Shown here piece by piece: positions 16,595-35,534 of a DNA stretch of 64,000 bases. The notes beneath the pieces were generated by a model. That model ran no database searches and was not told the origin of the DNA. It saw only the letters and a list, made by a program, of their open reading frames with translations. Position 1 is the stretch's first letter, and the number at the start of each line of letters is the position of its first letter. The DNA is taken from positions 496,001 to 560,000 of the forward strand of contig NZ_VNHU01000001.1 in NCBI RefSeq assembly GCF_008124785.1, read 5' to 3'. Source of the stretch: Aquimarina intermedia. GTDB taxonomy: Bacteria; Bacteroidota; Bacteroidia; Flavobacteriales; Flavobacteriaceae. The position numbers and the translations under genes were made by a program.

Positions 16595-16667
16595 CGCGGG
16601 ATAGAGCAGTAGGTAGCTCGTCGGGCTCATAACCCGAAGGTCACTGGTTCGAGTCCAGTTCCCGCTA
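16595..16667 (+). tRNA. initiator tRNA-Met (CAT anticodon)
   Basis: The cloverleaf folds by eye. A 7-position acceptor stem carries an unpaired C1-U72 end. The anticodon stem TCGGG/CCCGA holds the loop CTCATAA (anticodon CAT at 16628-16630), and the T arm is a 5-bp stem around GTTCGAGT. The lack of a Watson-Crick pair at position 1-72 and the three consecutive G-C pairs in the anticodon stem are the hallmarks of initiator rather than elongator tRNA. CCA is not encoded. Its 3' half is repeated 18.7 kb away (see 35332-35357 and 35521-35534), marking it as an island integration site. Confidence 0.92.
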
Positions 16668-16669
16668 CT
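16636..16669 (+). repeat. attL-like tRNA 3' half (core of the island direct repeat)
   Basis: The segment from the variable loop to two bases past the discriminator is present a second time at the far end of the island, in two pieces. Bases 16636-16661 (26 bp) are identical to 35332-35357, and bases 16656-16669 (14 bp) are identical to 35521-35534. Confidence 0.8.
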
Positions 16670-16678
16670 AGAAAAGAT

Positions 16679-16708
16679 AAGGCTTCACAGTAATGTGAGG
16701 CTTTTTTT
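16679..16708 (+). terminator. intrinsic terminator after tRNA-fMet
   Basis: An 11-bp stem (16679-16689 with 16694-16704, two wobble pairs) with the loop GTAA, running into a T tract. It lies 11 bases after the tRNA. Confidence 0.75.
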
Positions 16709-16762
16709 ATGGCTTGGTAACAACAATAGGTACAACATTTGGATCAAGATCAATTGTTGTGT

Positions 16763-17659
16763 TTAAGCAAAAATTCTGGTTAACCTAAAAAGGAAGAATT
16801 CCACATTTTTGACTCCTCTAAACTGCGCTCTAAAGGCTTTTATTTTCGCATTAAAAGATTCTGCTGATGCATTGGTACTCCTATTGATAAAATAATTCAA
16901 TATGGACCTATAGTTTATAGTGATTGTATTGGCAATAGTATTGAATGCTTTGAAGCCTGTTTGTTCAACATCCTTATACCAATGTGCTAGTTTAGTATAG
17001 GCTGACTGAATAGAAGTAGCCGTATTGAATATACTTCTTAGTCCTTGAACTAAATCATATGCTTTTTTAATATCTGGATACTGATCGAATAGTATCTTGG
17101 ATCTTAGGTGTTGATTTTCTGTCCAATTATTTGGTGCTTTATAGAGCAGATATCTGCTTCTGGCTAAGAGTTGTTTTCTGGTATCTCCATTAGAAAAGGT
17201 TTCAGCATTGAAGTTTTTTTGATTAGTTTTAGCTTGTTTGATTTGCTCATTTTCCTGATCTATAGCTTCCCAACGATGTTTTATTCTAATGTCTTGCAAG
17301 GCTTCTAAAGCTAGTTTTTGTACGTGAAATCGATCTGTGACTTGTATGGCTTTAGGAAAACATTTCTTAGCGATCGCTTTCATTGAATTAGCCATATCTA
17401 GAGTGATCTCTTTTACTTTATCTCTTAGTGATTTTGGAATTTTCAGTAATTGCGCTACGATAGGGTCTACTTGGGTGCCTGCCAGTATAGCAACAATAGC
17501 TCCTTTTCTTCCTTTGGCTTTTTTATTGGTAATAATTGTGTAGAGTTCTCCCTTAGAAAGTGTTGTTTCATCAATAGACAAATACGTACCCATATTCTCT
17601 GGAAAAATCAACCATTCCTTAGCATGAGGTTTTTCTTTCCACTCCTTAAACTCACTCAA
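16763..17659 (-). CDS. ISL3/ISAon1-type transposase, catalytic part
   Basis: DDE transposase domain of the ISL3 type. The first Asp lies in YLSIDETTL, the second in ITLDMANSMK followed by the family-typical VTDRFHVQKLALEAL, and the Glu in NASAESFNAKIKAFRAQFRG near the C terminus. The only initiator here is a TTG at 17659, which aligns with an internal Leu of the fused protein frame, so independent initiation is doubtful. The same frame is open upstream to about 17755 and overlaps the N-terminal ORF by about 20 nt in the +1 register. Expression of a full transposase would need a +1 (or -2) shift there. Copy 2 at 21.0-21.5 kb has the two frames joined at the same spot. Confidence 0.82.
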   Translation of the reverse strand: MSEFKEWKEKPHAKEWLIFPENMGTYLSIDETTLSKGELYTIITNKKAKGRKGAIVAILAGTQVDPIVAQLLKIPKSLRDKVKEITLDMANSMKAIAKKCFPKAIQVTDRFHVQKLALEALQDIRIKHRWEAIDQENEQIKQAKTNQKNFNAETFSNGDTRKQLLARSRYLLYKAPNNWTENQHLRSKILFDQYPDIKKAYDLVQGLRSIFNTATSIQSAYTKLAHWYKDVEQTGFKAFNTIANTITINYRSILNYFINRSTNASAESFNAKIKAFRAQFRGVKNVEFFLFRLTRIFA

Positions 17660-17735
17660 AGAATCTCGGTATTGACGTTGTAATTTCTTGCCGTTAACGC
17701 CATAAAAACTACCAATAGTATGACAATCGTTGGGT

Positions 17736-18089
17736 TTAGTAGTGATTAAGTGCTTTTAAAAAAGCAGCGAACTCAACTGTCATACGAGTCCCCTGCGCTA
17801 CTAAATTCCAATCTCTCTGAACAGCTGCCTTGGTCTTTTTATCTAGCCAACGACGGCGTTTAATATGAAGATAGACCTTTTTACCACGAATGGGAAAGTC
17901 TTGAATCGTTATCTCTTTGTGAAAACCGTGAGAAATAACCAGTCCGGAAGAAAATTCTTGAGGGATCGCTACTTTCTCCTCGAAATTAAGATGGAGAACA
18001 TCTTGCTTTATTTCATGTTTTACAATGTCAAAATGAGTAATCAGTAGTTCCGGTAAAAGAACCTTCAGTAAGTCTATATAGGGATCCAA
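17736..18089 (-). CDS. ISAon1 family transposase N-terminal region protein
   Basis: A 117-aa protein starting MDPYIDLLKVLLPELLI, the N-terminal (DNA-binding or accessory) half of ISAon1-like transposases that is often encoded as a separate ORF. The middle contains GKKVYLHIKRRRWLDK, a basic segment. It ends FLKALNHY at the overlap with the catalytic frame. Compared with copy 2, the minus strand here carries one extra A after TTTTTTAAA, which shifts the frame. Either this is the normal two-ORF arrangement of the family or the copy has been frameshifted. Confidence 0.8.
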   Translation of the reverse strand: MDPYIDLLKVLLPELLITHFDIVKHEIKQDVLHLNFEEKVAIPQEFSSGLVISHGFHKEITIQDFPIRGKKVYLHIKRRRWLDKKTKAAVQRDWNLVAQGTRMTVEFAAFLKALNHY

Positions 18090-18164
18090 TCTTTGCTTTT
18101 TTTTGACAAAGATCTTATTCTATTTTCAATTCACCCACAACTTTTAGGAATGATCCCAACATTT

Positions 18165-33827: not shown

Positions 33828-33898
33828 ATGATTTATTGAGGTCGCAGAGGATTTGGCGAACTCAATATAGTCTAAGTCATTTGTATCAGGTTCAAGTT

Positions 33899-34714
33899 TT
33901 AATTCGTTGATTGAAATTTTTGATAAAAATAATTTAGACCTTCCTGGATACCCTTATAATAATTGTGATTTGTCACATAGTCCGATTTTGCAATTAGCTT
34001 AGGGTGGGCATTTTTCATAGCAATAGAAGTATTAGAAACTTCAAATAGTGAAAGGTCATTTTCTGCATCACCAAAAGAATAGATGAGTTTATCTTTAATA
34101 GTATCTCTATTTAGAAATAAAGCTTTATTGACTGAACTAGAGTTTATTTCTATATAGTTAGTATTTGAATAACAAAAATTGAACCCGAAGTTTTCTAAAC
34201 ATTCTAAATCATCTTTTGAGTTAGATATCAGTATAGCTTTTAGGATTTTTGTGGAGTCTTTGATTAAATTAATAGGGATAGCATCCATTTTAACGGCTTT
34301 TCTTTTCTTCTTATATTCTTTACTACCTAAGTTGAAACTGAACCATTTATCTTTAGAATAGAGCCATAAATTCTTCTTTATAAAACGGCTTAATAGAAGC
34401 TGAATCTGTCTTTTTTTAATTGATTTTGATACATATTCTTTATGGTCTATTATGGCATAAGCCCCATTCAGTGAGATATAGTCAAAATGGGTTTTAGGTT
34501 TAAATGGAATTAAGTTCCAAACTCCGGTAATGGGACGAGCAGATGCAAAAATAACTTTATTGTGTGTAGATAATTTTGATAATAAATTTAGTAGGCTTTG
34601 AGAAATACGACTGCCACTTTTAGGTATAAGTGTTCCATCAATATCAAATATAAAAACACTATTTCTAAAATTACTTACTATTTTATAATTTATCTTGTTA
34701 TCTGATATTATCAT
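33899..34714 (-). CDS. HAD-superfamily hydrolase, Cof/sucrose-phosphatase-like (type IIB)
   Basis: A 271-aa HAD phosphatase. Motif I is FIFDIDGTL (nucleophile Asp24, Asp26), motif II ASARP, and motif IV SFGDAENDLSLFEVSNTSIAMKN, with an inserted C2-type cap (about residues 85-190). The closest pattern is the Cof/SPP group of sugar-phosphate phosphatases. It is convergent with the fructokinase gene inside the same island, so a sugar phosphate is a reasonable but unproven substrate. Confidence 0.78.
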   Translation of the reverse strand: MIISDNKINYKIVSNFRNSVFIFDIDGTLIPKSGSRISQSLLNLLSKLSTHNKVIFASARPITGVWNLIPFKPKTHFDYISLNGAYAIIDHKEYVSKSIKKRQIQLLLSRFIKKNLWLYSKDKWFSFNLGSKEYKKKRKAVKMDAIPINLIKDSTKILKAILISNSKDDLECLENFGFNFCYSNTNYIEINSSSVNKALFLNRDTIKDKLIYSFGDAENDLSLFEVSNTSIAMKNAHPKLIAKSDYVTNHNYYKGIQEGLNYFYQKFQSTN

Positions 34715-35331
34715 AATAAAGTATTCTTTAGCAGAAGCTTATTTTTTTAAAATTTGTAGCAGTAGCTTAGCAAGCTGAATGATATTTAGTTTTATTTAAA
34801 GTTAAGGCATTATCAAAAAAGTTGAATCAATATTGCAACCTTTTTTATGGTAATTGCTGAATTTTTGTTTTACAAAATCAGAAGTTTTGTAATAATAGAC
34901 ACTCTCTTCTGAAAACCAAATTGATGTAACACGGTCAAATAATGAGAATATTGCGCAATTACAAGCAAATTTAAAGACTTTTAAGTTTTCAATAACTTAT
35001 AGAGAAGGAGATGAGAATGAAATAATTAGTTTTTAATTATTTTATTTTGAAACTTTCTCTAATATGGATTCTATATTAGAAACTGTTCACTATTACATTT
35101 TCTTCACAAATTTTAAAATTTAAACCGAGACAGACTGCATAGCCGGTGGTTGCCTCCCTTTTATAAGTCTTTACTCGCTCACAATTTTAGTGTCGGTTAC
35201 CGAAAAGGTAACGGCGATGGCGCTATGGGAAGTAAGTGAATAAAATTGAATTGAATCGGAATCTGTATCATTTTGCTACAAATGAACTTCATAATTATTA
35301 AACCACATAGAGTTCAATCTCAAAAGAACCT

Positions 35332-35357
35332 GAAGGTCACTGGTTCGAGTCCAGTTC
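35332..35357 (+). repeat. attR-like fragment 1: tRNA-fMet variable loop and T arm
   Basis: 26 bp identical to 16636-16661. The sequence upstream does not form a D arm or a proper anticodon stem, and the acceptor end reads TCGCGAC instead of CCGCTAC. It is therefore a tRNA fragment, not a working gene. Confidence 0.8.
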
Positions 35358-35370
35358 TCGCGACAAAGTA

Positions 35371-35398
35371 AACCTCTTGAGAAATTAAGAGGTTTTTG
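35371..35398 (+). terminator. hairpin with T tract between the two tRNA fragments
   Basis: AACCTCTT (35371-35378) pairs with AAGAGGTT (35387-35394) around an 8-base loop and is followed by T-rich sequence. It resembles the terminator of a tRNA gene and lies 13 bp after fragment 1. Confidence 0.55.
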
Positions 35399-35520
35399 TT
35401 TTTGGAGGCAGTAATTTTATTTTAACTTTCAAACCATACAAAAGATGCAATGCGTCAAGCAGGAAGGGCATGATTTGTGTAAGCTTCCCTTTAACGGCCA
35501 ACGAGTAAGGCGATTTAGTT

Positions 35521-35534
35521 CAGTTCCCGCTACT
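35521..35534 (+). repeat. attR-like fragment 2: tRNA-fMet acceptor end
   Basis: 14 bp identical to 16656-16669, including the acceptor-stem bases and the first two bases past the discriminator. It starts with CAGTTC, the hexamer that ends fragment 1 (35352-35357). Joining the fragments at that hexamer recreates an uninterrupted 34-bp copy of 16636-16669. Confidence 0.7.

Follow-up and report, generated by a model that had tools for sequence, protein, structure and literature searches.

The window analysed here is a stretch of 64,000 nucleotides from Aquimarina intermedia (contig NZ_VNHU01000001.1, positions 496,001 to 560,000), in which an initiator tRNA gene (tRNA-fMet) is followed by a fructan utilisation locus and by a partial copy of the same tRNA. 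Judged from its sequence, the interval 16669-35364 is probably a decayed, tRNA-anchored integrative island with the fructan locus as its cargo. An island had been suggested here in an earlier note on this DNA, and that reading held, with corrections to its border, to the standing of the site as a hotspot and to the spread of its cargo.

The tRNA-fMet repeats and the genes between them

16595-16668, plus strand: initiator tRNA-Met(cat) gene, on the side of the left attachment site (attL); its 3' half (16631-16668) is the repeated part
35327-35364, plus strand: degenerate tRNA-fMet 3'-half copy resembling a right attachment site (attR), with a terminator-like hairpin behind it
35521-35534, plus strand: short tRNA 3'-end copy of 14 nt

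The CGCGGG start and CCCGCTA end of the full gene fit an initiator tRNA, and it is the sole full copy in its own genome, a 3.49 Mb draft of 29 contigs. The ungapped match between 16631-16668 and 35327-35364 is 35/38 on the same strand, and includes 26 nt, GAAGGTCACTGGTTCGAGTCCAGTTC, found exactly at both 16636-16661 and 35332-35357. The sequence CAGTTCCCGCTACT is likewise exact at both 16656-16669 and 35521-35534. This 14-nt copy alone is weaker evidence, as a 16-mer containing it gave three matches at up to 3 mismatches, including one with 3 mismatches at 53.9 kb, against 0.4 expected. A 23-mer of the longer repeat, allowing up to 3 mismatches, occurs at two places only in the window and 0 times in 100 shuffles, and a tRNA T-arm motif (5-bp stem, GTTCRANNC loop) scanned on both strands was found only at the two repeat places. 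Across the own genome, a 201-bp query around the tRNA matched two places only at E≤0.001 (3.7e-101 and 7.9e-9), and no third copy of 3'-half size was found. A co-oriented direct repeat of the tRNA 3' part, the mark of a tRNA-anchored island, is therefore present at both ends, the distal copy being degenerate.

The following genes lie between the repeats.

16763-18089, minus strand: ISL3-type insertion sequence (IS), its transposase split in two open reading frames (ORFs; 16763-17659 and 17736-18089)
18760-20635, minus strand: dual-specificity-type phosphatase and metallo-beta-lactamase/rhodanese protein, the "persulfide genes" of the earlier note
21004-21544, minus strand: second IS copy, truncated, with a stretch of up to 96% identity
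21707-24439, plus strand: hybrid two-component regulator of the fructan locus
24994-26310, plus strand: MFS sugar transporter
26321-27931, plus strand: GH32 glycoside hydrolase, of a fructan-active family
27938-32856, plus strand: SusC-type receptor (27938-31099) and SusD (31111-32856)
32946-33827, plus strand: PfkB-family sugar kinase, likely a fructokinase
33899-34714, minus strand: HAD hydrolase, at the place of the integrase in genome G309 (see below)

The fructan locus comprises six genes, and regulator, SusC/SusD pair, GH32 and sugar kinase stand together as in a polysaccharide utilisation locus (PUL); its gene families suggest that fructan is the substrate. The G+C content of this part is 33.1%, against 37.3% in the left flank. 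A scan of the 12 ORFs between the repeats that reach 100 aa detected no integrase domain, tblastn of the window with six integrases gave a best E of 0.57, and mobilisation queries from G309 gave a best E of 0.009, at 52 kb and so outside the island. Both exact repeats, the gene content (IS, persulfide genes, fructan locus, HAD hydrolase) and the lack of an integrase had been claimed in the earlier note, and all were recovered here. The repeat is also not scattered through the genome, which the note had named as a possible ground against an island.

The region behind tRNA-fMet in Aquimarina

10485-16193, plus strand: left flank, with efflux genes (HlyD, AcrB-type, OEP) that are long-standing neighbours of tRNA-fMet
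35535-51400: second accessory stretch, with TonB receptor/FecR/sigma, amidase and sulfur-type genes (47689-50847), non-syntenic behind tRNA-fMet of congeners
51497-57131: right flank common to congeners, with LytTR regulator, sensor kinase, 216-aa protein and SpoU methylase (56583-57131)

An efflux operon followed by tRNA-fMet is an order common to other genera. Among 80 loci encoding a relative of the left-flank OEP, 32 had a full tRNA followed by 3 kb or more of sequence; SpoU (window 56583) was in view in three and not in 29, at 0.7 kb from the tRNA start in Olleya aquimaris, 3.2 kb in Salinimicrobium catena and 8.1 kb in a Winogradskyella metagenome-assembled genome (MAG). The distance from tRNA-fMet to Der is 2.7 kb in Olleya, and SpoU lies 12 kb behind the tRNA in the congener G010. 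The old order was therefore likely tRNA-fMet, SpoU, a 293-aa protein (probably Era) and Der.

The genus survey covered 66 genomes (65 congeners and the own), with one genome per species and many drafts. Eight with poor or partial matches were left out and 58 were typed for the full tRNA and Der, which share a contig in 28, the own included; the other 30 are uninformative, as the two genes lie on separate contigs. The tRNA comes first and Der is codirectional in 28/28, with a spacing of 23.3-449.8 kb (median 145 kb; measured in G023 across the end of its single contig), and the 48.3 kb of the own genome is the second smallest. Where several full tRNA copies exist (e.g. G042, G054) the copy on the Der contig was chosen, which favours this result. 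Other DNA lies behind tRNA-fMet in all 14 congeners read, and tRNA-fMet is a standing hotspot of Aquimarina for accessory DNA.

Further tRNA-fMet 3'-half copies were found in eight of these 14, all co-oriented, beginning at tRNA position 27-32 and ending at about 75. There are four in G019, three in G021 and G044, two in G016, G023 and G061 (one G061 copy being only 81% identical) and one each in G064 and G012, the latter with a second full tRNA-fMet as well. G024 and G033 have short 3'-end pieces only, and no copy was found at E≤0.05 in the 17-77 kb read of G010, G030, G035 and G047, with matches of 10-11 nt present in G010 and G030. In G046 a copy lies beyond Der. The T-arm alleles vary within arrays, which would fit islands that each arrive with a tRNA 3' half of their own, and G019 carries both common ones. 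One G021 copy (L128, region 38500-38546) has a mosaic T-arm (ACAGG with CAGTT), a mix of the two common genus alleles. Short 3'-end pieces with a terminator occur in G061 (14650-14702), G064 (15365-15415), G033 (6008-6048) and G024 (35845-35885; all region coordinates), and stand apart from a 3'-half copy or about 150-170 bp behind one, like window 35521. They are perhaps a second kind of attachment site.

Some of the copies adjoin integrases. Just inside a distal copy in G019 sits a tyrosine integrase whose domains are Arm-DNA-bind_5, SAM-like and catalytic, and proteins 41% and 72% identical to it are likewise placed in G016 and G061. The second full tRNA-fMet of G012 adjoins a protein that matches PF00589 weakly, under the cut-off, and whose 60% relatives adjoin tRNA-fMet in A. 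megaterium and a MAG. Three islands, X (G019, G044), Y and Z (both G019, G021, G023, G044), gave no PF00589 match, serine recombinases not having been searched for; they are common to several species in differing order, with the Z genes reversed in G019. Island Y measures 12.6 kb (G019, region 78345-90930) and carries AraC, SPFH, MscS, Branch glycosyltransferase, Ala-racemase/M15 and DUF1611 genes, the last found in 21/65 congeners. At 16 further Y loci, a tRNA-fMet copy is in view in six (one a divergent full tRNA, G065), tRNA-Phe abuts two (G004, G006) and tRNA-Arg one (G057), with no tRNA at seven. No credible tRNA-Phe 3' repeat was found at the far side of Y in G004 and G006; in G057 (L184, 12034-12050 and 12179-12253) a second copy of the 17 nt that end tRNA-Arg lies between this gene and the island.

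To place the right border, the stretch before Der was read in 12 congeners. The window's order from 51.5 or 52.2 kb onward is common to eight, all with homologues of the sensor kinase (52246-55377) before Der (G024, G027, G030, G033, G046, G051, G052, G061); the regulator (51497) is in view in four (G027, G030, G051, G061), and in the other four the stretch read starts inside the kinase. Only the 55520 gene and SpoU are in view in G019, only SpoU onward in G035 and G044, and none of the four right-flank genes in G054. G030 lacks the 55520 gene and SpoU before Der, and G010 lacks the kinase as well. In the 17-117 kb read behind the tRNA-fMet of 14 congeners, tblastn matched no window ORF from 35.5-51.4 kb (E≤1e-20 over half of the query). 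The 5'-nucleotidase-type gene at 48332-50017, possibly SoxB-like, is present in only one of the 66 genomes, the own; elsewhere in the genomes, relatives of the TonB receptor occur in 63/66 (the best congener receptor being 46% identical) and of its neighbour in 41/66. As the shared order resumes only near 51.5 kb, some 35 kb (about 16.67-51.4 kb) is accessory and the 35.3-kb repeat is an inner junction. A right border at 35.5 kb was thereby rejected, and one at SpoU (56.6 kb), drawn from G010, Olleya and Salinimicrobium, was superseded by about 51.5 kb, since the kinase and regulator are shared in congeners. Within the second accessory stretch, redoxin, 5'-nucleotidase-type, DsrE-like and DoxX genes (47689-50847) form a second sulfur-type block in the hotspot, and 36213-36887 and 37011-37667 are tandem paralogues with about 70-73% DNA identity in stretches and no Pfam match.

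Several expectations of the earlier note need revision in this light. Its description of both flanks as ordinary chromosome is not borne out on the right, directly behind 35.5 kb, and the predicted joining of 16.7 kb to 35.6 kb was seen in no genome examined. A near-empty arrangement does exist in other genera, the closest to an island-free site being Olleya. The congeners do not share the window's gene order, so the objection that relatives might be collinear throughout falls away. Initiator tRNA, called an uncommon target, is a regular one in this genus, and the fructan locus stands behind tRNA-fMet in two other genera too (G222, G300).

The fructan locus in other Flavobacteriaceae

The window GH32 gene has no match in the 65 congeners (E≤1e-40), and GH32 relatives occur in 126 of 349 sampled genomes of the family (E≤1e-80). 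The 45 top-ranked GH32 loci were read, leaving out G189, G249 and the second G182 copy, and a full copy was defined as regulator, MFS, GH32, SusC and SusD on one strand, with regulator, SusC and SusD at least 45% identical. Nineteen loci, from other genera, were full. Within 4 kb of nine of them lies a co-oriented tRNA, whole or as a 3' half, and six tRNA kinds are represented.

G222: tRNA-fMet 308 bp upstream, behind the same efflux genes
G300: tRNA-fMet, 2.6 kb
G199: tRNA-Met, 387 bp
G248: tRNA-Leu, 588 bp
G194: tRNA-Arg, 658 bp
G276: tRNA-Arg, 1.8 kb, with an integrase between
G180: tRNA-His, 738 bp, with a tRNA-Ser at the opposite end, facing
G238: tRNA-Leu 3' half (identity read by eye), 0.5 kb upstream
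G309: tRNA-Ala 3' half 1.4 kb downstream, full tRNA 6.3 kb upstream

Of the other 26 loci, which lack the full set, five showed a tRNA of any kind in view. With the window included, the T-arm motif is co-oriented in the flanks of 9/20 loci and on the opposite strand once, the expectation being 0.3 (one strand, flanks of all 20 loci, mononucleotide shuffling). Der lies about 137 kb behind tRNA-fMet in G222, codirectional; in G300 it is 4.7 kb away on the other side of the tRNA, indicating that this locus is rearranged. In G238 the tRNA-Leu 3' half adjoins an integrase 50% identical to that of G019, and a 10-nt tRNA end lies behind the locus. Repeats on both sides were sought around the 19 other loci, and an exact tRNA repeat (18 nt) was found only in G309, the downstream side being under 1 kb in several; other exact flank matches of 13-14 nt resemble AT-rich chance. 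Tree discordance was dropped as proof of transfer, because locus and Der identities correlate.

The G309 locus appears complete.

3436-3510: tRNA-Ala
24016-25242: integrase
25383-25443: tRNA-Ala 3' half

Behind the tRNA-Ala come DUF5906, Toprim, NikA-like, MobA/VirD2-type relaxase and Fic genes, followed by the fructan locus with an added GH36 and then PfkB. Between PfkB and the distal copy stands the integrase, where the window has the HAD hydrolase. From its gene order, the element between tRNA-Ala and its 3' half looks like an intact mobilizable one, and relatives of the fructan locus look to ride in similar islands at other tRNA genes.

Probable origin of the island and comparison with known systems

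The best reading of the window island is an integrase-less remnant of an element like that of G309, similar to a cis-mobilizable element (CIME). An integrative and mobilizable element (IME) with a tyrosine integrase would have entered the 3' half of tRNA-fMet, so that the tRNA stayed complete ahead of it and a 3'-half copy came to follow it; from the extent of the repeat, the integrase would recombine within the part from the anticodon loop to the 3' end. The window copy presumably once carried integrase and mobilisation genes, and may have had a conjugative origin. These genes would later have been lost with the att-like ends remaining, the IS copies would have arrived afterwards, and the distal end would have eroded. 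The erosion suggests that the island is probably fixed, and by now immobile. Of the two explanations that the earlier note gave for the missing integrase, decay is thus favoured over mobilisation in trans. The island lies in an older hotspot, from tRNA-fMet to SpoU/Der, where Aquimarina species stack islands in tandem.

Several observations weigh against this. The window holds no trace of an integrase or mobilisation gene, and in the distal copy tRNA positions 1-36 are missing and 3 of the 38 retained positions are mismatched. The variable stretch continues to 51.4 kb, which makes the unit of the island uncertain. Ten of the 19 full fructan loci have no tRNA signal, and only the window and G309 showed direct repeats on both sides of the locus, G238 giving weaker signs of them. 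Fructan-locus identity also tracks Der identity somewhat (Spearman 0.59, P 0.03, 13 genomes), G222 being an outlier.

The island may instead be an accretion, in which the IS/sulfur part (16.7-21.6 kb), the fructan locus (21.7-35.4 kb) and 35.5-51.4 kb arrived separately and the inner junctions were lost. This is a serious possibility, if not a likely one: the IS copies flank the phosphatase and lactamase-rhodanese genes, neither gene turned up next to any of the first 25 fructan loci read, and congeners stack islands. However, the T-arm motif is absent between the two repeat copies, and G309 likewise has other genes in the 6.3 kb that separate its tRNA from the regulator, so that such a gap in the window is not unusual. 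Mobility in trans, with an integrase elsewhere in the genome still serving the island, is improbable. The own genome does encode four PF00589 proteins, all on other contigs, and islands X, Y and Z are common to species in differing order despite giving no match to this domain, but the two of these proteins that were compared (contigs C9 and C15) share no more than 29% identity with the integrases beside tRNA-fMet copies, no tRNA was found in the 10.6-19 kb examined around them, and the distal copy is eroded. Least probable of all is a stray tRNA remnant of duplication or homologous recombination, unrelated to site-specific integration, which would suit the missing integrase and the degenerate copy but not the recurrence of congener 3'-half copies in one orientation with a near-fixed start and integrases beside some, nor the 3'-half copies that accompany this cargo in other genera, at tRNA-Ala and tRNA-Leu.

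Beyond the decayed island itself, a wider and joint proposal is offered tentatively, at somewhat less than even confidence. Across Flavobacteriaceae, tRNA-targeted mobilizable islands may have carried the fructan locus as cargo time and again, inserting at fMet, Met, Ala, Leu, His and Arg tRNAs, and the Aquimarina tRNA-fMet may head an open-ended array of integrase-free metabolic cassettes, each with a tRNA 3'-half tail, which the integrases of other islands reorder and pass from one species or tRNA site to another. The movement of whole sugar-utilisation loci between marine flavobacteria thus becomes a testable question, with a candidate vehicle (a tRNA-targeted element with integrase, relaxase and fructan locus), its decayed remains, and one chromosomal address, the initiator tRNA, behind which as much as 450 kb of variable DNA is kept in this genus. 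No description of this hotspot, or of a fructan locus in a tRNA island, was found in the titles and abstract openings of the open-licence papers that the searches listed.

Polysaccharide loci are known to ride on Bacteroides conjugative elements. The likeness is a polysaccharide locus on mobile DNA; the Flavobacteriaceae carrier differs in being tRNA-targeted and of mobilizable type. Exchange of native PULs is mentioned in the abstract of PMC13188876, and a term search of PMC10108472 gave nothing on islands. Tycheposons and other tRNA-bordered flexible islands, as far as the accessible text of PMC10872708 describes them, carry cargo behind tRNA-Met with a tyrosine recombinase; compared on these two features only, the window island has the tRNA border and lacks the recombinase. 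The Dehalococcoides ssrA islands, from a partial view of PMC3146451, also stand in tandem behind one RNA gene with 3'-end repeats, and 15 of 31 have no integration module, but they use transfer-messenger RNA and a serine recombinase where Aquimarina has tRNA-fMet and tyrosine recombinases. The accessible sections of PMC5704250 cover the two closest classes. The Bacteroidota IMEs NBU1, NBU2, MTnPi4 and Tn6031 share the make-up of G309 (tRNA 3'-end target, tyrosine integrase, MobP-type relaxase); they use other tRNAs, and the window has neither its own integrase nor a relaxase, both present in G309, and carries a polysaccharide locus. CIMEs are described there as decayed, cis-mobilizable forms of tRNA-integrated IMEs or integrative and conjugative elements. 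The window island, seen here from sequence alone, differs in its eroded ends and in that no integrase-bearing neighbour that might act as helper was found at its own tRNA-fMet, and resembles them in its retained att-like ends, in the absence of integration and transfer genes between these, and in tandem stacking at one tRNA.

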